A stretch of DNA of 64,000 bases from an uncultured Sulfitobacter sp. GTDB taxonomy: Bacteria; Pseudomonadota; Alphaproteobacteria; Rhodobacterales; Rhodobacteraceae. Position numbers and translations under genes: made by a program. The stretch spans positions 186,001 through 250,000 of the forward strand of contig CAJJCJ010000005.1 of assembly GCA_905182645.1 (NCBI GenBank), given 5' to 3'. This document shows, one piece after another, positions 50,528 through 62,924 of this stretch. The notes beneath the pieces are model-generated. The model did not search any database, had not been told where the DNA came from, and worked only from the letters and a program-made list of their open reading frames with translations. Every line of letters starts with the position of its first letter. Position 1 is the first letter of the stretch.

Positions 50528-51586
50528 ATGAAAAAAGTAGAGAGAAGACTGTGGCTTGCCGCCAGCGTCGTGGCCAGCAGCATGGTCATGGCCGCGCCTG
50601 CATTTGCTGAAGGCGAGGTGGTTTTTGCATCTTGGGGTGGATCATTTCAAGATGCTTTGCGCTCTGCGATGCTCGACCCTGCTGCCGAGGCGCTGAATGT
50701 AACGGTCAAAGAAGATACGACCAACGGTATTCAGGATGTGCGCGCACAAATCACAGCGGGTGCCGTTGCTTGGGATGTGACTGAGCAGGACTTACCTTCG
50801 TGTGAAACCCTCAGCCGAGAGGGCAAACTTGAGCCGATTGATTATTCTATTGTCGACACAACGGGTATCCCCGAAGAACTGATCCATGAGAACTACATTG
50901 GCTTCATCAACTTCACTAAAGTGATTGCCTACCGCACCGACGCATTTGACGGTGCCGGACCATCCAACTGGGCAGAGTTCTGGGATCTGGAAAACTTCCC
51001 CGGCAATCGCGGCATGCACGGCAAGGTGAACTACAACCTTGAGGCTGCCCTTATGGCCGATGGTGTACCTATGGCAGAAGTCTATGACATGCTGGCCACG
51101 GACGAAGGCATCGCGCGTGCCTGGGCCAAACTGGGAGAAATCGCACCCGAAGTCACCGTTTGGTATCGAGGTGGCTCACAATCCGCACAGCTACTGCGTG
51201 ACGGTGAAGTAGACGTGATTCACATGGGCCATAACCGTGTGGAAAGTGTCATCGCATCTGGCGTTGACGTCGCTTATGCATTCGATGGTGGCACGATGGA
51301 TGTCGATTGTTTGCTGGTTCCCAAAGGCGCGCCAAACGTCGAGAATGCGATGCGCCTGATCAACGAATTGCTGAGTGCCGAAGCACAGGCGAGGCTGGCG
51401 GTCACGATGCCTTTGGGTCCGGTGAATACGGGCGCGTTTGACACCGGCATTATCTCGGATGAGCAGGCTTTGTTGGTCAACACGCATCCGAGCAACTACG
51501 ACAAGCAGCTTCTTGTCGACCCGGCTTTTTACATCGGCCAATTGGGTGAGTTGACTGAAGAGTTCGACACACTGATCCAACAGTAA
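50528..51586 (+). CDS. Polyamine-type ABC transporter substrate-binding protein (PotD-like)
   Basis: 352 residues. Signal peptide MKKVERRLWLAASVVASSM, cleaved after APAFA. The mature protein starts EGEVVFASWGGSFQDALRSA, the spermidine/putrescine and related binding-protein pattern, followed by DVTEQDLPSCETLSREGKL, FTKVIAYRTDAF, NFPGNRGMHGKVN and VDCLLVPKGAPNVENAMRLI. Periplasmic receptor of the importer encoded by the next genes. With ureohydrolase genes nearby, a guanidino compound, polyamine or opine-like ligand is plausible. Intact. Confidence 0.9.
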   Translation: MKKVERRLWLAASVVASSMVMAAPAFAEGEVVFASWGGSFQDALRSAMLDPAAEALNVTVKEDTTNGIQDVRAQITAGAVAWDVTEQDLPSCETLSREGKLEPIDYSIVDTTGIPEELIHENYIGFINFTKVIAYRTDAFDGAGPSNWAEFWDLENFPGNRGMHGKVNYNLEAALMADGVPMAEVYDMLATDEGIARAWAKLGEIAPEVTVWYRGGSQSAQLLRDGEVDVIHMGHNRVESVIASGVDVAYAFDGGTMDVDCLLVPKGAPNVENAMRLINELLSAEAQARLAVTMPLGPVNTGAFDTGIISDEQALLVNTHPSNYDKQLLVDPAFYIGQLGELTEEFDTLIQQ

Positions 51587-51646: not shown

Positions 51647-52735
51647 ATGTCCTCTGCTGCCCAATCCCTTCCCATAGACATATCCAACCTGTGTAAAGCT
51701 TACGGCGCGGTAAAAGCGCTCGATAATGTGTCGTTAAATATTGCCGCAGGCGAATTCCTGACACTGCTTGGACCATCTGGCTCGGGCAAAACCACGCTTC
51801 TGATGGCACTGGCCGGTTTTGTGCGTCCGGATGGCGGGTCAATCCAATTTGGCGATCAAGAAATGATTGCAACACCGCCGCACAAACGCGGCCTTGGCAT
51901 GGTTTTTCAAAGCTATGCGCTGTTTCCCTTCATGACGGTGGCTGAAAATGTGGCCTATCCACTGAAAGTCCGGGGGGTTTCCAAAAGCGATCAAAAGACA
52001 CGCGCCGAGCGTGTGCTGGATACGGTACAACTTGGCGGCTATGGGGATCGGCGAATTACTCAATTGTCCGGCGGCCAAAGACAGCGAGTAGCCCTTGCCC
52101 GCGCGATGGTGTTCGAGCCGCAGATCATCCTGATGGATGAACCCCTGTCCGCACTCGACAAAAAGCTGCGCGAACATATGCAGATAGAACTGAAGGCGCT
52201 GCATCAAAAGCTGGATGCGACGGTTGTCTATGTCACACATGACCAACGCGAAGCTCTGACGATGTCGGACCGGATTGCAGTGGTCAATCACGGTCGGATC
52301 GAGCAGGTCGAGACGCCGGAGCGGCTCTATCGTCAACCTCATAGTTTCTTTGTCGCGGATTTTATCGGTGAATCAGTTTCCTTACCGGTAACGGTGGCCA
52401 AGGGTACCGCACAGCTCAATGGGCGCGTGCTAAAATCCGATTTACCGATTGCTCAAGGCAGTGGTGGCCATCGCTTGGTGATCCGGCCTGAATTGCTAGA
52501 GGTCACCGCAGGTGCTGTGCCAAAAACTGCCAATGATCTGTCCGGCCATGTGCACGACATAATCTATCAAGGTGACAGCGTGCTGGTCATTGTTCAGCAC
52601 GACAGTGCAGGCGAGATTAATGTGCGCGTCCCGGCCAATCGCGCGGGCCAAACAGGCCTGCCGTCCAAAGGGGAGCGAATTGGCCTTGCCCTACATCCCG
52701 AAGACACAATCATTGTACCGGAACATGTGGCATGA
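51647..52735 (+). CDS. Polyamine-type ABC transporter ATP-binding protein (PotA-like)
   Basis: 362 residues. Walker A GPSGSGKTTLLMALAG, Q-loop VFQSYALFPFMTV, signature LSGGQRQRVALARAM, Walker B IILMDEPLSALDKKLRE and switch VTHDQREALTMSD. The C-terminal TOBE domain extends from about residue 270. ATG at 51647 has TAGGA upstream. The stop overlaps a possible permease ATG (ATGA at 52732). Intact, but its first permease partner is frameshifted. Confidence 0.94.
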   Translation: MSSAAQSLPIDISNLCKAYGAVKALDNVSLNIAAGEFLTLLGPSGSGKTTLLMALAGFVRPDGGSIQFGDQEMIATPPHKRGLGMVFQSYALFPFMTVAENVAYPLKVRGVSKSDQKTRAERVLDTVQLGGYGDRRITQLSGGQRQRVALARAMVFEPQIILMDEPLSALDKKLREHMQIELKALHQKLDATVVYVTHDQREALTMSDRIAVVNHGRIEQVETPERLYRQPHSFFVADFIGESVSLPVTVAKGTAQLNGRVLKSDLPIAQGSGGHRLVIRPELLEVTAGAVPKTANDLSGHVHDIIYQGDSVLVIVQHDSAGEINVRVPANRAGQTGLPSKGERIGLALHPEDTIIVPEHVA

Positions 52736-52750
52736 GTATCGCCGAAACCA

Positions 52751-53637
52751 ATGCGGGATGCTACAATACTTCAGAACGCAAGCACGCTCAAATCCGAAGA
52801 GCGCCGTGAACGCATGACCTTCTTTGGGCTTTCGTTGCCTGCAGTTCTTGCCATTTTGATTGTCGTGTTTGTGCCAGTTTTCTGGCTGTCTTCGCTGTCG
52901 TTTTACAATGCTGCTGGTGAGTTGAGCTTGGAAAACTACGAACGTATTTTCAACAGTGCGCTTTATCGGCGGACCTTTGTGGTCACCTTTCAGATCAGCA
53001 TCTCGGTGACGGTGATTTGTGTCTTTCTCGGGTATCCGCTGTGTTACTGGCTGACAAGAGTGTCGGACAGAACAGCCGCCATTCTGATGGTCTTCGTGCT
53101 GGTCCCGTTCTGGACTTCGATTCTGGTGCGTACATACGCTTGGCTGGTGCTATTGCAGCGCAATGGCATCATAAATTCGTCGTTGATGTCGATGGGCATT
53201 ATCGAGGAACCGCTGCAACTGGCGCACAACCTTACGGGTTCAATCATTGGCATGGTCCATATCATGCTGCCGTTCTCTGGTCCTGCCGCTTTACGCCACC
53301 ATGCGGAGCGTTGACACGGATCTGGTTCGGGCCGCGGTTGGCCTCGGCTCTAGCCCGCGCGGGGCGTTCTGGCGGGTCTTTTTCCCGATGTCGCTGCCGG
53401 GCTCTATTCGCCGGCATCGTGCTGGTCTTCATCCTGTCTCTTGGCTTTTTCGTTACGCCTGCTTTGCTGGGCGGCGGCCGGGTGCAGATGCTGGCACAGC
53501 GGATCGAAAGCACAATCACAGTCTATTCCAATTGGGGTGCTGCATCGGCCTTGGGCGTTGTCCTGTTGCTTCTGGCACTGATGATGATCTGGCTCATGAA
53601 CCGTGTCTTCGGTCTCGACAAACTCTTCATGCGCTAA
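52751..53637 (+). pseudogene. PotB-like ABC permease with two frameshifts
   Basis: Three consecutive frames read as one permease. The first runs MTFFGLSLPAVLAILIVVFV to GMVHIMLPF; removing one base near 53277 continues as LVLPLYATMRSVDTDLVRAA then VGLGSSPRGAFWRVFFPMSL (the EAA loop); removing another near 53402 continues as LFAGIVLVFILSLGFFVTPA to the stop at 53637. Six membrane segments result. An ATG at 52732 overlapping the ATPase stop is a possible original start, in another frame. As sequenced the importer lacks this half of its channel. Confidence 0.85.
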
Positions 53638-55252: not shown

Positions 55253-56023
55253 ATGAATAACCCGCAGAAACGATCGAAGTTAACCGGATATGCCAGTTTG
55301 CCATTTGGCGAGATTTCGCAATGTGTGGCGGGCGATATTGGGGTTTTGGGCGTTCCAAGCGAAGTCGATAGCGGGCCCCGAATGGGAGCCTCTTTGGCAC
55401 CGGATGTGTTGCGTAAGATGGCCGGGCAACTTGAGGTCGACCTGCCTGCAGCTGGCTGGGATCTTGGGAATTTGGATCTGTCGGGGGATTGGTCCGGCGT
55501 ATTGACGCATCTTGTGACGCAAATGGTAGCCGGTGACATTGTGCCAGTTGTTTTGGGTGGCGCGTCAAATGTTGCTTCGGGCGTGCTGCAGGCCTTGCCT
55601 GATCTTCCAGTTGTCGCAGCCATGCCACTGGTTCGGGGCGATGTCGCTGCGCGACAAGAAGAAACGATATGGGTGGGGCTGAACGGCGGACAACCCGCAG
55701 ATGTATGGGATCAGATTAACCAACGCTCGATGGCCTGGCGTACTGCCCGGCAGTTGGATGAAGGAAACACTGGTTTTTCTAGTATGCCCAAACGAGCTAT
55801 TCTTTGGGTTGATATATCGGTCATTGATCTTGGGCATGCAGCTGGCGCTGTCGGTCTTAATCCCGGCGGGATGAAACCCGAAACGTTGGTTTCAGTCATC
55901 GGGGCAATGACCTGTAGCTGGCAGGCGATTGTGATCACTGGCCTTGCGCCTGCGCGTGACACGCGTGGCATGTCGGAACTGACGGCTATTGAAACCCTCA
56001 ACGCGGCCTTGCGCAATGGGTGA
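55253..56023 (+). CDS. Ureohydrolase-fold protein lacking metal ligands (paralogue A)
   Basis: 256 residues that follow the arginase/agmatinase fold: DIGVLGVPSEVDSGPRMGAS then LAPDVLRKM (residues 28-56), VPVVLGGASNVASGV at the GGDHS position (102-105 GGAS, His absent), WVDISVIDLG at the SxDxDxxD position (D187, S189 instead of Asp, D192), and VITGLAPARDTRG where the final Glu motif is expected. The DAHxD strand is unrecognisable. So the binuclear metal site is gone. First gene of the operon; its stop overlaps the start of paralogue B. Probably non-catalytic: a partner or sensor. Full length for a shortened family member. Confidence 0.7.
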   Translation: MNNPQKRSKLTGYASLPFGEISQCVAGDIGVLGVPSEVDSGPRMGASLAPDVLRKMAGQLEVDLPAAGWDLGNLDLSGDWSGVLTHLVTQMVAGDIVPVVLGGASNVASGVLQALPDLPVVAAMPLVRGDVAARQEETIWVGLNGGQPADVWDQINQRSMAWRTARQLDEGNTGFSSMPKRAILWVDISVIDLGHAAGAVGLNPGGMKPETLVSVIGAMTCSWQAIVITGLAPARDTRGMSELTAIETLNAALRNG

Positions 56024-56689
56024 TACAGCGCAAATACAATTTGACTCGATCCCCAGTTTTCTGGGTGTATCTGTTGGCGATTTGGAAGATCTTATGCCCG
56101 GACAGGTCGCAATAGCAGGGTATTTTTGTGACAATCTCGACCTGCCAGTGGCGGGACAACGCTACCTCGCAAGACAGTTGCGATATGCCTCCCTACCCGA
56201 AAATGCGTCTGCGAATGCAATTGATCTGGGGGATGTAAACGTATTTCCGCTTGAGCCGGACAAGCATTTTTCAGCAGTTGTCTCGCAATGCGAGGCGGTC
56301 CTGGAAACCGGCGCGCGGATGGTGCTGGTTGGTGGTGATTCCAGTGGCCTAAAAGCGCTTGGCATTGCTGCGCAGAAGGTCACAGGTGCGGATGTCACTG
56401 TTTTACCGTTAAAAGGGGACATTGCGGTAATCTGTCTAAGCCTCAACCAGTCATCCTGTCTGTGGATTTAAACGAAGCTTGCGGGCATCTGGATGTCGCA
56501 CCCGAGCCCTTGACCGGCCTGTCGCCCGCACAAATGATTGCGCAAATTGACGCCACACCGGGCAATGTTATTGCTGCGGTGGTTTTTGGACTTGCCCCAG
56601 CATTAGACCATCGTGGCACCACGGAAACCCGCGCGGCGCTTGCAATCTTGCAAGCAGTGGCTGAGCGCCTTGAGAAAGGAGCTCCTTGA
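56016..56689 (+). pseudogene. Ureohydrolase-fold paralogue B, metal ligands absent, frameshifted
   Basis: Starts at ATG 56016 inside the end of A. MPGQVAIAGYFCDN, GQRYLARQLRY and LVGGDSSGLKAL (GGDS at 106-109, Ser in place of His) follow the fold. After about 56425 the frame breaks; the next frame gives KPQPVILSVDLNEACGHLDV (D-x-N instead of D-x-D) and FGLAPALDHRGTTETRAAL to the stop at 56689. The shift here is a lost base, or two gained ones. As in A and C, the second Asp of the DxD motif is replaced and the last Glu is missing. The gene is short for the family, about 224 residues. Confidence 0.65.
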
Positions 56690-57564
56690 TGCCTTTACGG
56701 TCCGCTCCATTGCCGCGCATGGCAGGGCATTTGTCGTTCATGCGCGCCCAAACCAAAGCTATCTGCGATGTCATGCCTGGCGATCTGGCGGTGCTTGGCG
56801 TCCCGTTTGAAGACATAAGCGCGCCCTACGCTGGTCAGTTTCTGGCGCCGCGCGCATTGCGCGAAACCTCGGTATATTTTGGTTGGCATGCAAACCCTCA
56901 ATTCAGCCACCCAGTTGATATTGATGCACGACAAGACATTCAAACCGACGGCTTGCATGAGCGGTTGTACGACCTCGGGGATATATCGCTGGGACCCGAT
57001 GAGGCGATTCAGGCGACATTGAAGGCGGCAATAAGTCAGATCAGTCGCAATGGTGCCTGTGCCATAATATTAGGCGGTTCGGATAGCCTGTCCGAGACAG
57101 TGCAGAGCGCGATGCCTAAGTGTCAGACAGCGCAGCTTGGCGGCATACCACGTGATGCGCGCGATTTTCATGTAGCGCCCTTACCTAATGGTTATGCGAC
57201 AACTTGCAAATTAGAAACAGCCGCGCAGCTTGCAAGGCTATCCCAATGGCGGGATGCATCTAAGCCGCTGTTTGTGCGGTTTGATCTTTCCGTGTTTGAA
57301 ACATCGCTCAGCGCGCTTTGTGACCAGCCACGGTTAGGTGGCTGCGATCTTGATACAGTGGTGCAATGGCTTGAGCTTCTAGGACAACACGAGGTCAACG
57401 CTATCATGTTGACCGGCCTGAACCCGAGTCGACCTGGCATGGGCGTGGTGAAGGTTGGCCAACGACTTATGGTCACGGCCCTTCTGGCATTTATCTATGC
57501 GCGCCTGAGATTTGGGATTGATCATCTAGGCTGCCTAACCTCAAAGGAAGAAGTATCAACATGA
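56689..57564 (+). CDS. Ureohydrolase-fold protein lacking metal ligands (paralogue C)
   Basis: 291 residues, ATG at 56689 overlapping the stop of B (TGATG), with AAAGGAG upstream. Fold landmarks are GDLAVLGVPFEDISAPYAGQ, FLAPRALRE, LYDLGDISLGPDEAI, AIILGGSDSLSET (GGSD at 129-132) and LFVRFDLSVFETSLSAL (D199, S201 in place of Asp, E204), then IMLTGLNPSRPGMG in place of the Glu motif. DAHxD is again absent. So the fold seems kept while the active site is lost. Coupled to the canonical enzyme by an ATGA overlap. Intact reading frame argues that the protein is, or recently was, under selection. Confidence 0.7.
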   Translation: MPLRSAPLPRMAGHLSFMRAQTKAICDVMPGDLAVLGVPFEDISAPYAGQFLAPRALRETSVYFGWHANPQFSHPVDIDARQDIQTDGLHERLYDLGDISLGPDEAIQATLKAAISQISRNGACAIILGGSDSLSETVQSAMPKCQTAQLGGIPRDARDFHVAPLPNGYATTCKLETAAQLARLSQWRDASKPLFVRFDLSVFETSLSALCDQPRLGGCDLDTVVQWLELLGQHEVNAIMLTGLNPSRPGMGVVKVGQRLMVTALLAFIYARLRFGIDHLGCLTSKEEVST

Positions 57565-58560
57565 CTGCAATGATTGCAACATTCCACCCGCCCTTGTCTC
57601 AACCGGGGTTTCGGCTGTTCGATGGGCCATTACGCGATGTGGCCGATGTCAGTGCGGACCAGATTGGCGTGGTCGGCATGCCGTCTGACTGGACACATTC
57701 CAGCCGTCTGGGCACAAGGTTCGGCCCCGAAGCATTGCGCAGGGCGACAAGTCTTTTGCAATCCATGCGCCCGCAAGGGGCAAGCTTTGACCCTGACACG
57801 CGCCGCCACACCGTGCCCGCAACGGATTGGTTGGTTGATTGTGGCGACGCAGAAATCACACCGCAAGATGTTGACGCAACGACGCAGGCAATCGCGGCAA
57901 TGACAGAAGGATTGACGGTTGCAGGCGCGATCCCACTTGCACTGGGTGGAGATCATTATAACAGTTTCCCGGCCTGTCTGGGGTATTCCCGTGGGCTGGC
58001 TAAACGCGCACCAGACGCGCGCTTTGGGTATATCCAGATCGACGGCCATCTGGATTTCTCTGACCGACTGGGCGCATGGGGCAGTCACAACCACGCAACA
58101 AATGCCCGCCGGATCTCTGAATTGCCCAACATAGATGTATCCAACATGGTCTGGGTCGGCATCGCGGGCTGGGTCGATGGCGGTGACTCTGGCCTTGATC
58201 GAAGAACAGGGCGGGCGGGTGTTTTCATCCAGTAATGTGCATGACTTAGGCCCGGTAGAGGTTATGCGCCAAGCACTTGCGCATGCCATGCAAGGGTGTG
58301 ACGAGCTTTATCTGTCGATTGACATTGATGCTATGGACGCCGGTTATCTTCCTGGTACAGGTTCCATCGTGCACAGCGGCATTACCCCTCGCCAGTATTA
58401 TGATCTGCTGGATGGGTTGGCAGAAGCCCCCTTGGGCGGATTGGACATTGTCGAGGTTTCACCGCCGCTAGATCCGTCAGAGCGCACAGAATTCCTGGCG
58501 GCAGAAATGCTGTTTCGGGTTCTGCGCCGCTTCCGTACCCGACCGGAGATAGGGCTATGA
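57561..58560 (+). pseudogene. Canonical ureohydrolase (agmatinase/guanidino-acid hydrolase-like), one frameshift
   Basis: About 332 residues when one base near 58179 is removed. Keeps all ligands of the Mn/Ni binuclear site: LALGGDHYNSF (H132), IQIDGHLDFSD (D161, H163, D165), and after the shift SIDIDAMDAGYLPGTG (DxD and third Asp) with VEVSPPLD (Glu). The family cleaves guanidino groups to urea plus amine (agmatine, guanidinobutyrate, guanidinopropionate, guanidine) or formimino groups. The GH instead of AH in the central motif is a small variation. Exact substrate unknown. If the frameshift is real the enzyme is inactive. Confidence 0.85.
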
Positions 58561-59252
58561 TGGAATATATCGGAATCCAACAGCTCGGTGGTTTATCACA
58601 TGCAGGAAAGATTCTGGCCCCAGCAACCCGGCCGTGGATCACTGATCTTGCAGCACTGTGTCCATACGAGGGTCTGCAATCTGGAAACCTCCCCGAATTC
58701 GAGCGTGACCCGAATTGGAACAATTGGACTCTCATAGACAGCCCCAAAGACCCACTCAGGCGCCTGAATTGGCATGTGTTTCAACAAGGAGGCACCCGCT
58801 ATTTGGTAGCTGATCGGATGCTTATGAGCCGCGTCAGTTGGCAAGATCTGGATGACGCTGGGTATGTCTTTGGTACAGAAGTGTCGATTGATGACAGACA
58901 GTTTCGTTGCAGGTTGTTGACCGGTGGTGATACGCCCAATGATGACCCCTATCAGGGGGCGACTGGGCCCAATGAATGGGATGCGTTAGTAGGCGGCTAC
59001 GCCGCGTCGCACGCGCCTCAACCGGATCTGACCAATAGTGAAGCACCGCTTAGCCCAGATCATCTGAACTCGTCTCATAACTCTTTGTGGAACTGGTTCG
59101 GTGCGGTCAGTTGGACGGCCGAACCTGTCGCTAGCCGTTCCGATGGACGGGTGTGTCGAGGTTATCACGGCCCAATATATTTTTACGTAAACACTGTGGA
59201 CCACCGGCATGAAGATATTGGCTGGCGGCCAGTTCTTGAGGAATTATTATGA
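58557..59252 (+). CDS. Operon protein of unknown function
   Basis: 231 residues, no signal peptide or membrane segments. Rich in Trp, Asp and Asn; repeated aromatic motifs (NWNNWTLIDSP, NEWDALVGGYAASHAP, SLWNWFGAVSW) and the ending RGYHGPIYFYVNTVDHRHED then IGWRPVLEELL. The WRPVLE-type ending is seen in several uncharacterised soluble or surface beta-sandwich proteins, but I cannot name a family. It is translationally coupled to the ureohydrolase upstream (ATGATG overlap) and to the dehydrogenase downstream (ATGA), so it is part of the pathway unit. Intact. Confidence 0.7.
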   Translation: MMEYIGIQQLGGLSHAGKILAPATRPWITDLAALCPYEGLQSGNLPEFERDPNWNNWTLIDSPKDPLRRLNWHVFQQGGTRYLVADRMLMSRVSWQDLDDAGYVFGTEVSIDDRQFRCRLLTGGDTPNDDPYQGATGPNEWDALVGGYAASHAPQPDLTNSEAPLSPDHLNSSHNSLWNWFGAVSWTAEPVASRSDGRVCRGYHGPIYFYVNTVDHRHEDIGWRPVLEELL

Positions 59253-60697
59253 CTGTAAACCCGTTTCCCAACTATATCGCTGGAACATGGGTGGCTGGCA
59301 ACGATGCTGCCCCCAATATCAACCCATCTGATCTGAACGACACAATCGGTGATTATGCTCGAGCCAATACCAACCAGACCGTTGAAGCGATCGAAGCCGC
59401 GACTGTCGCGTTTCCTAAATGGCGTGAAACATCACCTCTAGTACGGTTCGAAGCTCTTGACCGTATCGGGTCGGAAATCCTCGCCCGTGTGGAAGAGCTG
59501 GGCGACATGCTGGCCCGCGAAGAGGGTAAAACCCTTTCTGAGGCCAACGCAGAAGCACATCGTGCAGGACATCTGTTCAAATTTTTCGCGGCCGAGACAT
59601 ATCGCACAACTGGCGATGTTTACCAATCACTACGAGAAAGTGTGTCGCTTAAAGTTCTGCGTGAGCCAATCGGCGTCGTGGGCGTGATCACGCCCTGGAA
59701 TTTCCCACTGGCGATCCCTGCATGGAAAATTGCACCCGCCCTAGCCTATGGCAATACGGTTGTGTTCAAACCTGCCGAACTGGTGCCGGGATCGGCCTGG
59801 ATTTTGTCTGACATTATTGCACGCGCGGGTCTTCCCGAGGGCGTGTTCAATCTGGTGATGGGCACGGGCAGAGAAGTAGGCGAAGCGATTGTTGCACACC
59901 CCAAGGTCTCAGGGGTTACCTTTACTGGCTCCACACCTGTCGGGCGCAAGATTGGTGCCGCGCTATTCGCCCGTGGGGCCAAAATGCAGCTTGAGATGGG
60001 GGGCAAGAACCCATTGATTGTACTCGATGATGCGGATCTGGATCTGGCGGTGCACTGCGCTTTACAGGGTAGCTTTTTCTCAACCGGGCAAAGATGCACG
60101 GCTTCTTCCCGCCTGATCGTCACAGACGGAATTCACGACGCATTTGTGAACCGTCTTTGTGTGGCAATGAAAGACCTCAGGATCGGTGATGCGCGCGCGC
60201 CGGAAACACAGATTGGTCCCGCGGCCAGTGAGGCGCAATTGGCTATCGACAAAAGATACGTTTCACAAGGTGTGGATGAAGGCGCAACACTTGCCGCAGG
60301 TGGTGGCGAAGTTAAATCCAAAACCCCCGGACATTACTTTGCTCCGGTCTTGTTTACAGATGTGTCATCACAGTCAGCCGTGGCGCGGGACGAAATCTTT
60401 GGGCCAATTGCCGCTGTCTTACGTGTGCCGGACTATGATGCGGCCTTAGCCATGGCCAACGACTGCGAATTTGGATTGTCTGCTGGCATCGTCACGCGGG
60501 ATACCGCCAAGATTGACCACTTCACACAGAACGCCGAGGCAGGCATGATTCAGGTCAATCTACCCACCGCTGGCATGGATTTCCACGCACCATTTACGGG
60601 CCGAAAAGGATCATCCTATGGCGCGCCGGAAAAAGGCAGTTATTGCCGCGAATTTTTCACTGCAGCTAAGGTTGTGCACGAAGGAGGCAGACAATGA
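59249..60697 (+). CDS. Aldehyde dehydrogenase, 2-oxoglutarate-semialdehyde-type
   Basis: 482 residues. ITPWNFPLAIPAWKIAPALA, TFTGSTPVGRK, catalytic Glu in MQLEMGGKNPLIVLDDAD, catalytic Cys in FSTGQRCTASSRL and EIFGPIAAVLRV. The C-terminal FTGRKGSSYGAPEKGSYCRE then FFTAAKVV is like alpha-ketoglutaric semialdehyde dehydrogenases rather than betaine or succinate semialdehyde enzymes. It would oxidise an aldehyde formed after removal of a guanidino/amino group. Overlaps both neighbours by four bases. Intact. Confidence 0.88.
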   Translation: MTVNPFPNYIAGTWVAGNDAAPNINPSDLNDTIGDYARANTNQTVEAIEAATVAFPKWRETSPLVRFEALDRIGSEILARVEELGDMLAREEGKTLSEANAEAHRAGHLFKFFAAETYRTTGDVYQSLRESVSLKVLREPIGVVGVITPWNFPLAIPAWKIAPALAYGNTVVFKPAELVPGSAWILSDIIARAGLPEGVFNLVMGTGREVGEAIVAHPKVSGVTFTGSTPVGRKIGAALFARGAKMQLEMGGKNPLIVLDDADLDLAVHCALQGSFFSTGQRCTASSRLIVTDGIHDAFVNRLCVAMKDLRIGDARAPETQIGPAASEAQLAIDKRYVSQGVDEGATLAAGGGEVKSKTPGHYFAPVLFTDVSSQSAVARDEIFGPIAAVLRVPDYDAALAMANDCEFGLSAGIVTRDTAKIDHFTQNAEAGMIQVNLPTAGMDFHAPFTGRKGSSYGAPEKGSYCREFFTAAKVVHEGGRQ

Positions 60698-61889
60698 CGC
60701 AAGCACCGTTGAAGGGCATTCGCATTCTTGATCTGACCAATGTGCTGGCCGGTCCGTTCTGCTGTCACCAACTGGCCCATATGGGGGCCGACGTGATCAA
60801 GGTCGAAACCCCGGGCACTGGTGATCTTGCGCGCCAGCTTGGGGCTGATCCCGCGCGCAACGCCGACCTGATGGGCGTATCCTTTCTGGCGCAAAATCCG
60901 GGCAAACGGTCCATCACCCTGAACCTGAAATCGGCATCTGGAAAACGTATCCTGAAGGAGTTGGTGCAAAAGGCCGATGCCCTGGTCGAGAATTTTCGTC
61001 CCGGTGTGATGGCACGCCTGAACCTTGATTATGAAACGCTCCGCAAGGAAAACCCCCGCCTTGTCTATTGTGCTATCTCAGGCTTTCGGTCAGGATGGCC
61101 CGCTGGCGAAACTGCCTGCCTATGACCAGATCGTACAGGGGATGAGTGGTGTGATGTCGATCACCGGCGACGCCGACACCGCCCCTTACCGGGTGGGCTA
61201 CCCGATGGGTGATACAATTGGCGGCATGACAGCGGCCTTCGCCGTTGCCGCAGCCCTTGCCAATAAGGCTGAGGACCGCGGTACTTTCATTGATGTCTCG
61301 ATGCTTGAAGCCGTCATTGCGACGATGGGTTGGGTGGTGTCGAACCATCTGATCGCTGGAAAGGCACCCATCCCGAACGGCAACGATAATTTCACGGCTA
61401 GCCCGTCCGGCACGTTCAAAACCGCCGACGGTGTGATGAACATTGCCGCCAACAAACAGGAACAATTCGAGGCACTTTGCGAGATCATCGACAATCCGTC
61501 CTTGGCGCAGGATCCACGCTTTGCGGACCGAAAGAGACCGACTGGCCAATCGATCTGCCCTGACCGCCGAACTGGAGGCGGCCTTTGCCACTGCCCCCAC
61601 CCATGAATGGGTTGAGAAACTGACAACAAACGGTGTTCCCACAGGACCGGTCTGGTCGGTGCCCGAGGCGCTGGCGCATCCGCAACTTGCGGATCGAGGC
61701 CTACTGCAAACCCATCGCGTTGGCTCGGAGGATCTGCAATTGGTCGGGATCGGTGCTAAGCTTGATGGTATTGCCCCTGGCGTCGATTCTCCGCCCCCAA
61801 CTTTGGGAGAGCATACAAACGATATCCTGAGTGAGCTTGGCTATGACAAGGCCCAGATCTCGGGCCTGAAAGAGGAAGGTGCGATATGA
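60694..61889 (+). pseudogene. CaiB/BaiF CoA-transferase, two frameshifts
   Basis: Three frames read as one class III CoA-transferase of about 397 residues. Part one: GIRILDLTNVLAGPFCCHQL, ADVIKVETPGTGD, LVYCAISGF. Removing a C near 61087 continues GQDGPLAKLPAYDQIVQGMS through TFIDVSMLEAVIATMGWV and TADGVMNIAANKQEQF. Removing an A near 61531 continues DRLANRSALTAELEAAFATA to LSELGYDKAQISGLKEE and the stop. The family moves CoA between acids. As sequenced it is broken. Confidence 0.85.
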
Positions 61890-61971
61890 CGGACCTCAAA
61901 CGCAGAGTGGCTGCAGTTTTTACTCTACAGAAATTACGTCTGCCAAGAGAATTACAGTGGAGGGATTCGCC

Positions 61972-62924
61972 GTGCCTCAGGGAATTGACGTACTGGTGAG
62001 TGAGGTTGGCCCGCGGGACGGGCTACAGAGCATCAAACGCACGATGCCGACAGAGGCTAAGCTCCATTGGATCGAAGCGCTGGCGGCCTCGGGGCTTCGG
62101 GAGATCGAAGTGGGATCTTTCGTGTCCCCACGCCTGCTGCCGCAAATGGCCGATTGCGCCACACTCGTAAGAGAAGCGAACAAACTTGAGGGTCTCACAG
62201 TTCTGGCGCTGGTTCCCAACCTTAAAGGGTGCAGAAAACGCCATTGCAGCCGGTGCGCGCAAGTTGACCATGCCAATATCAGCCTCGCGGACGCACAGCC
62301 TCAATAATATTGGCAAGACCCCCGAAGAGGCGATCGAAGAGGTCCGCCGAGTTTGTGCTTTTCGCGACTCACTGCCGGTCGAGCAGCGTCCAGACGTTGA
62401 GATCGGCATCTCGACAGCGTTTGGCTGCACATTTGAGGGCACAGGTGTCGGAGGACTGGGTGATCGAGATGGCGGACCTGCTGGCAAAGGCAGGCGCGGA
62501 CAGCATCGGTCTTTCGGATACGACTGGCTATGCCAACCCAGCCCAGATCAAACGCATGTTCCGCCGCCTGCACGGCGAGATTGGTGCGGAGAAAATGGCA
62601 GGTGCTCATCTGCACAACACACGTGGCCAAGGCCTCGCCAACGTCGTGGCCGCCCTCGAGGTTGACGTGACCACCTTCGATTCCTCGCTTGGCGGACTTG
62701 GCGGCTGCCCCTATGCGCCGGGAGCAACCGGCAACATTGTGACTGAGGATCTTGTCTTTATGCTGGAAGCGATGGGTCTGCGCACAGGTGTCGATGTAGA
62801 TGCGTTGATCGCCGCACGCGAAGTGCTGCTACGCGGACTGCCAGATGAGACCATCTATGGCAACGTCCCGGCGGTCGGCTTGCCCAAGGGCTTTACCTAT
62901 GCTGGCAACAAGAGCGCAACATGA
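61972..62924 (+). pseudogene. HMG-CoA lyase-like enzyme, two frameshifts
   Basis: GTG at 61972 with GGAGG upstream is the likely start (VPQGIDVLVSEVGPRDGLQS). After LALVPNLKG an extra G near 62229 breaks the frame; the next frame gives AENAIAAGARKLTMPISASR and EEAIEEVRRVCAFRDSLPVE; an extra A near 62441 breaks it again; the last frame has VSEDWVIEMADLLAKAGADS, AHLHNTRGQGLANVVAALE, the catalytic-Cys loop GGCPYAPGATGNIVTEDL and the stop at 62924. Family enzymes cleave 3-hydroxy-3-methylglutaryl-CoA or related hydroxyacyl-CoAs to acetyl-CoA plus a keto acid. Sits between two CoA-transferases. Confidence 0.87.

Follow-up and report, generated by a model that had tools for sequence, protein, structure and literature searches.

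We analysed a 64,000-nucleotide stretch of the genome of an uncultured Sulfitobacter sp. (Rhodobacteraceae; assembly GCA_905182645.1, contig CAJJCJ010000005.1, positions 186,001 to 250,000 of the forward strand), hereafter called the window, in which four tandem genes of the arginase (ureohydrolase) family, A, B, C and D, are followed by a gene of another kind, E, within a longer operon. An earlier note, made from the sequence of the window, had singled out A to D as three paralogues devoid of metal ligands next to one canonical enzyme. The five genes are the following:

55253..56023, + strand: A, pseudo-ureohydrolase of 256 aa that lacks the dinuclear metal site (Pfam Arginase, 1e-10; alignment; motif count)
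56016..56689, + strand: B, the shortest pseudo-ureohydrolase, 220-224 aa in relatives (Pfam; intact relatives; AlphaFold2 and Foldseek on the copy at locus L014)
56689..57564, + strand: C, pseudo-ureohydrolase of 291 aa (Pfam Arginase, 1.4e-11; alignment; motif count)
57561..58560, + strand: D, catalytic-type ureohydrolase with six metal ligands, 331-336 aa in relatives (Pfam Arginase; motif count)
58557..59252, + strand: E, stand-alone protein with homology to a retroelement target protein of a phage, over the N-terminal domain of the latter (phage protein matches)

Neighbouring genes are joined, as the earlier note had it for A to D, by overlapping stop and start codons, the overlaps of 1-8 nt being 8 nt for A/B, 1 nt for B/C (TGATG), 4 nt for C/D and 4 nt for D/E. 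The window's own copies of B and D are frame-broken, at ~56.4-56.5 kb and ~58.18-58.21 kb, respectively, and each is split over two frames. Against the Pfam Arginase profile (cut-off 22 bits), A scores 42 bits and C 44.8 bits, while the two fragments of D reach 98.4 and 99 bits; the first piece of B stands exactly at the cut-off (22 bits) and the second falls below it (11.9 bits).

The metal-binding motifs were counted over the copies of the four genes, with near-identical pairs (L014/L049 and L015/L016) included and the window's broken B and D excluded. DxHxD occurs in 0/11 copies of A, 0/10 of B and 0/11 of C, as had been claimed for the DAHxD strand, and in all ten copies of D. The loss of the GGDH His, likewise claimed for all three paralogues, stands for A (0/11), B (0/10) and ten of the 11 copies of C but fails for the remaining C, from L018, which reads GGGDH; the motif is present in 10/10 copies of D. 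None of the aligned rows (8 of A, 7 of B and 8 of C) deviates at the first Asp of DxD. The second Asp position is Ser in A and C and, in B, Asn in the window and Gln, His or Gly in relatives, so that the Ser, Asn and Ser first read from the window are recovered, and the position of the last Glu, also described as lost, is occupied by Gly in 5 A, 7 B and 4 C rows of the joint alignment (A6). A shared DxxxxD/E strand is upheld as regards its first Asp but not its later acidic residue, five places on, which varies in C (Lys in L018). From the catalytic six-ligand set (GGDH, DxHxD and DxD), A, B and C thus retain only the first Asp of DxD, the GGGDH of L018 aside, and the window's D pieces jointly carry GGDH, DGHLD and DIDAMD, in keeping with the claim that the fourth gene keeps every ligand. 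Sequence comparison therefore confirmed A, B and C as members of the arginase family in which the dinuclear metal site is missing, and D as a member with all six ligands.

Conserved polar residues are left in the stripped copies, such as D187 and H195 of A, invariant across 8 rows, and could speak for A, B and C catalysing another, metal-independent reaction in the re-used pocket. We consider this improbable, since no known set of active-site residues was recognised (by eye, no dedicated search being made) and since, in the joint alignment, much of the middle of the arginase fold is missing in B. The overall fold of B was approached by prediction, the earlier note having proposed a structural comparison of the paralogues with agmatinase. 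An AlphaFold2 model of the L014 copy, built on 21 rows of B, A, C and D orthologues, has a predicted local distance difference test score (pLDDT) of 82.7 and a predicted template-modelling score of 0.84. A Foldseek search of the PDB with this model gave 146 matches at E ≤0.001, the best being agmatinase 1wog (E 1.4e-9; template-modelling score 0.75 by query), with the metformin hydrolase chains and a Trypanosoma brucei arginase-like protein among the first 50. B, whose family membership is the most doubtful of the three, is predicted to be folded like an arginase; note that the model is not independent of D, because rows of D, as of A and C, are in its alignment.

We then asked how widely the set is conserved. 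A pattern-based scan of genome contigs, which detects close relatives only, returned 44 matches, 8 of them loci that encode relatives of A (two Shimia, Pelagimonas varians, three Ruegeria and two metagenome-assembled genomes). All eight show the order solute-binding protein, transporter ATPase, IclR-type regulator (reverse strand), A, B, C, D, E and aldehyde dehydrogenase, with each of A to E in a single open frame. Additional operon loci were found in genomes G236 (near-identical to L014), G151 (distinct) and G731 (the genome of the L017 record; locus L053). As L049 is near-identical to L014, and the A proteins of L015 and L016 are identical, near-identical pairs were counted once; eight distinct genomes then remain in addition to that of the window (L011, L012, L013, L014, L015, L017, L018 and L050). 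The run A-B-C-D-E-aldehyde dehydrogenase is contiguous in the window and in all eight, where A to D are single open frames; a search for the same gene order with intact A to C in other genomes, proposed in the earlier note, was thus positive.

Median pairwise ratios of nonsynonymous to synonymous substitution rates (dN/dS) are 0.210 for A (36 pairs), 0.200 for B (27 of 28 pairs usable) and 0.144 for C (35 of 36), as compared with 0.063 for D (26 of 28), 0.120 for E (34 of 36) and 0.078 for the aldehyde dehydrogenase (28 pairs, L018 excluded); the highest value of any single pair is 0.333, in A. The pseudo copies are under weaker constraint than D, yet they are clearly maintained by purifying selection. 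The same order, intact frames and purifying selection in eight further distinct genomes, together with the arginase-like model of B, support the suggestion that A, B and C form a fixed set of pseudo-enzymes with one catalytic partner. Pseudogene status for A, B and C is ruled out by the open frames in these genomes together with the selection values. That the three are decaying duplicates of no importance is accordingly hardly credible: it can appeal to the frame breaks in the window's B and, likewise, in D, a permease and the CoA-transferase (CoA, coenzyme A), but decay of this kind would at most concern the whole locus, and in the window's genome alone.

Alignment of the window's copy to each of three relatives gave 12 frame-changing indels, 9 of them within genes, affecting one permease, B, D and the CoA-transferase, i.e. 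4 of the 12 operon genes. Open frames of at least 220 aa cover 0.755 of the window, as against 0.83-0.90 in the loci of four relatives; in 4-kb steps this cover is 0.87-0.94 over 0-16 kb, 0.33-0.58 over 16-24 kb, 0.75-0.79 over 44-60 kb and 0.44 over 60-64 kb, so that the operon does not stand out from other parts of the window where cover is also low. The four other full arginase-family matches in the window's genome have no internal stop. Homopolymer slips were rejected as a plain cause, the longest runs near the breaks being 2-3 bases, as in most background 12-mers. The locus may have suffered decay, or indel errors in assembly; with B and D both broken, it may be out of use in this genome.

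The co-occurrence of C and D was followed in 394 sampled genomes of the family. C matches above 560 bits were found in three, the window's own (G000), G151 and G236, and the 80 other genomes with a C match all stay below 38 bits, as expected of ordinary arginase-family genes. Matches to D of orthologue strength occur in the same 3/394 genomes, the next D-like match reaching 163 bits, and the D-like genes that come closest without belonging to the set (G334 and G406) have no A or C match of orthologue strength alongside. D of the operon type was thus not seen without C in this sample. No match to C was found in plasmid sequences. As a separate observation, G406 carries two adjoining ureohydrolase genes (L068:9190-11117), in each of which ligand motifs can be made out by eye; the first of the two is among the nearest outside relatives of D. 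The operon-bearing metagenome-assembled genome G731 (L017/L053) is placed in another family of the same class than the window's genome.

The descent of the paralogues was examined in a 44-row tree. Its canonical rows are 28 from 31 loci, as L029 and L035 failed the motif filter and one protein was a duplicate (neighbours L001/L002); the rows L004 and L041 are very long-branched, and an earlier tree with a stricter filter held three canonical rows only. A, B and C fall on one side of a branch with support of 80/86, which is not secure, and all have very long branches, the stems leading to A, B and C measuring 2.84 to 5.04 changes per column. The approximately unbiased test retained alternative topologies with A to D as one clade (p 0.505) or A and B as one clade (p 0.548).

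Profile searches with D gave as best solved relatives 9fek (125 bits), 7esr/7oi1 (118 bits), 3-guanidinopropionase (103 bits) and guanidinobutyrase (92 bits), and at best 73 and 64 bits against the metformin hydrolase chains. The entry title of 9fek gives the guanidinase of Nitrospira inopinata; 7esr/7oi1 bears the entry name probable agmatinase 2 and is presumably a guanidine hydrolase. The operon of D includes three pseudo paralogues, partners that these best-matching enzymes (9fek, 7esr/7oi1 and 3-guanidinopropionase) are not known to require.

The earlier note knew of no described system of this form, which is too strong a statement. Metformin hydrolase (MetCaCb, MefH or MfmAB) is a complex of a catalytic and a pseudo ureohydrolase, a heterohexamer of alpha2beta4 stoichiometry (PMC11271267, PMC11399263). 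As described there, MetCa and MetCb are each inactive alone, MetCa is poorly soluble alone, and MetCb binds MetCa and caps its pocket (PMC11271267); the metal ligands changed in MetCb are given as five of six (PMC11271267) or four of six (PMC11399263). The likeness of A-D to this metformin or dimethylguanidine hydrolase (DmgH) lies in adjoining ureohydrolase genes, one with the full ligand set and the other mostly stripped. The differences are that metformin hydrolase has one pseudo gene where the A-D operon has three different ones, and that A and B (256 and 224 aa) are shorter than its pseudo subunit (348 aa). A further point of comparison is the Trypanosoma brucei arginase-like protein (4rhj), which has an arginase fold with metal positions that are substituted, as implied by the titles of mutant entries. 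This protein is eukaryotic and is not known to have an operon link to a catalytic paralogue. In the literature searched, no description was found of three distinct pseudo-ureohydrolase paralogues in one operon; the three-pseudo-subunit set would be a new variant of heteromeric ureohydrolase only partly anticipated there.

By analogy with metformin hydrolase, we favour, with some reserve, a heteromeric ureohydrolase in which D is the catalytic subunit, the metal-free paralogues A, B and C join it in one assembly, as the pseudo subunit of metformin hydrolase joins its partner, and the substrate is an imported guanidino compound. Since MetCa needs MetCb, D would depend in a similar manner on A, B and C, which would hold it in an active oligomer and would shape or cap its pocket; the differing lengths of A, B and C would reflect different places in the assembly. 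From the families of the surrounding genes (listed below), the operon as a whole would take up and degrade a nitrogen-containing compound, probably a guanidino compound: a small molecule would be imported, hydrolysed, oxidised, activated with CoA and cleaved. If so, this natural case would reveal how structural, gating and binding tasks are shared out among dead copies, here three partners graded in length, and the operon would point to an unrecognised marine guanidino compound.

Several observations weigh against such an enzyme. Four kinds of subunit fit unevenly into the usual trimer. A, B and C have no close kinship to the metformin hydrolase beta subunit 8ryi_C (A, no match at E ≤1; B, none at E ≤10; C, 20.7 bits), and B reaches the alpha-subunit chains only at E 0.7-0.9. 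Among the operon genes that were given a family, part of the flanks being scanned, there is no HypA or HypB, unlike in metformin hydrolase, and no evident amine oxidase or aminotransferase of the operon links the usual amine product of D to the aldehyde dehydrogenase. Finally, the set is rare and patchy, A being recovered from a single genome, the own one, among 99 sampled relatives, and from none of the 55 other genomes of the genus.

A different reading would separate A, B and C from D altogether, as metal-free binding proteins (for example substrate sensors or carriers) or as an oligomer of their own. The far drift of A, B and C from D and from each other, seen in the stem branches, and their many own invariant residues suit this view; it has to contend with the presence of C and D in the same 3/394 genomes (A and B were not part of that search), with the contiguity of A to D wherever the operon was read, and with the fact that the pseudo ureohydrolase described beside a catalytic one belongs to a complex. 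We regard it as a minority possibility next to the heteromeric ureohydrolase.

In the latter, E might serve as an additional subunit without catalytic role or as a ligand- or substrate-binding partner, or it could be unrelated to the complex. E has no sequence match in Pfam, NCBIfam or the PDB. Over its whole length, it matches a protein of the phage Mushuvirus mushu (tblastn, 35%, 3e-38; blastp, 82/233 identical, E 4e-45), as well as two PHROG families (1.5e-35 and 1.4e-19), neither of which has a known function. The Mushu protein bears the variable repeat (VR) of a diversity-generating retroelement (DGR): between the template repeat (TR) and the VR, both of 93 nt, there are 14 differing sites, 14/14 at TR adenines, and the genes for Avd and a reverse transcriptase adjoin that of the target protein. 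For the matching FP_Mushu domain, a C-type-lectin-like model has been reported (PMC10743442), and its repeat was variable among virion reads (PMC5883640). From these matches, E is homologous to a DGR target domain of the C-type-lectin type.

The relation is one of N-terminal domain to whole protein: the N-terminal domain of the Tentaclin/Hoc-like target of Faecalibacterium phage Mushu matches all of E, whereas E has no immunoglobulin-like domains, no retroelement is seen alongside and the equivalent of the variable stretch is conserved. Within this stretch 26 of 31 columns are invariant, versus 128 of 231 over the whole protein (9 rows). No template copy of the repeat was detected, the last 150 bases of E matching only themselves in the own genome, and there is no reverse transcriptase near E, the sole RVT_1 match of that genome lying on another contig (contig 14, 35939-36355, L055). 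As the equivalent stretch is conserved and no template was detected in the own genome, E gives the impression of a fixed relative of the retroelement-target domain, one that stands alone. Its own structure model is poor (pLDDT 42.5). Among phages, 19 records match E at E ≤0.1, six of them covering at least 80% of the protein; apart from those of Mushu-type phages, they are Pseudomonas phage proteins, virion or hypothetical, that share 24-29% identity with it. None of 51 pattern matches in viral contigs was confirmed, and the four plasmid records are all weak (E 5e-4 to 4e-2). E was found in two of 385 genomes of the class (the own genome and that with the L017 record) and, among 398 genomes of the phylum, in the own genome only. 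One could go further and see in A-B-C-D-E a single five-subunit enzyme, in which each of the three pseudo-ureohydrolases has its own place in the ring and E, from a lectin-type family, is frozen to bind one small molecule or partner; we offer this as speculative and rather doubtful. If true, gene E would exemplify a metabolic operon that employs a relative of retroelement-target domains.

The remaining genes of the operon, whose families were judged mostly on the L014 orthologues, are:

50528..51586, + strand: periplasmic solute-binding protein (SBP_bac_8; weakly PotD-like), with an orthologue in the same place in 8/8 related loci; family from the L014 orthologue
51647..52735, + strand: ATPase of an ATP-binding cassette (ABC) transporter, polyamine (PotA) class; the L014 orthologue passes the potA cut-off (368 bits vs 355.6)
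52751..53637, + strand: ABC permease 1, a single open frame in L049, L050 and L053 but split into three pieces in the window; family from L014
53603..54451, + strand: ABC permease 2; family from L014
54460..55233, - strand: IclR-type regulator, divergent (Pfam HTH_IclR and IclR_C)
59249..60697, + strand: aldehyde dehydrogenase, from the L014 orthologue, 90% identical to that of the window
60694..61889, + strand: class III CoA-transferase (CaiB type), which the window has as three fragments; L014 orthologue CoA_transf_3, 410 bits
61879..62924, + strand: gene like that of 3-hydroxy-3-methylglutaryl-CoA (HMG-CoA) lyase, in pieces, the first assigned by profile scan and the later ones by eye

The L014 solute-binding protein scores 129.7 bits with SBP_bac_8 and 30 bits with the PotD model, for which the cut-off is 582, and the best NCBIfam model of the L014 aldehyde dehydrogenase is alpha-ketoglutaric semialdehyde dehydrogenase, at 502 bits and under its cut-off of 770. 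The first piece of the HMG-CoA-lyase-like gene stays below both of its cut-offs (PRK05692, 92 bits vs 246; HMGL-like, 28.8 vs 29); this gene, too, appears fragmented in the window (61879-62924). In the place after the CoA-transferase, where the window has the HMG-CoA-lyase-like gene, L014 (15632-16459) and L011 (15629-16441) have one of the citryl-CoA-lyase type, which passes the NCBIfam citryl-CoA lyase cut-off of 261 bits with 433 and 422 bits, respectively. Cleavage of CoA esters is common to both types and may give a hint of how the pathway ends. Upstream, L013 (2360-4238) and L018 (852-2786) carry, before the transporter, a second solute-binding protein with 56-57% identity to that of the window, together with another gene.

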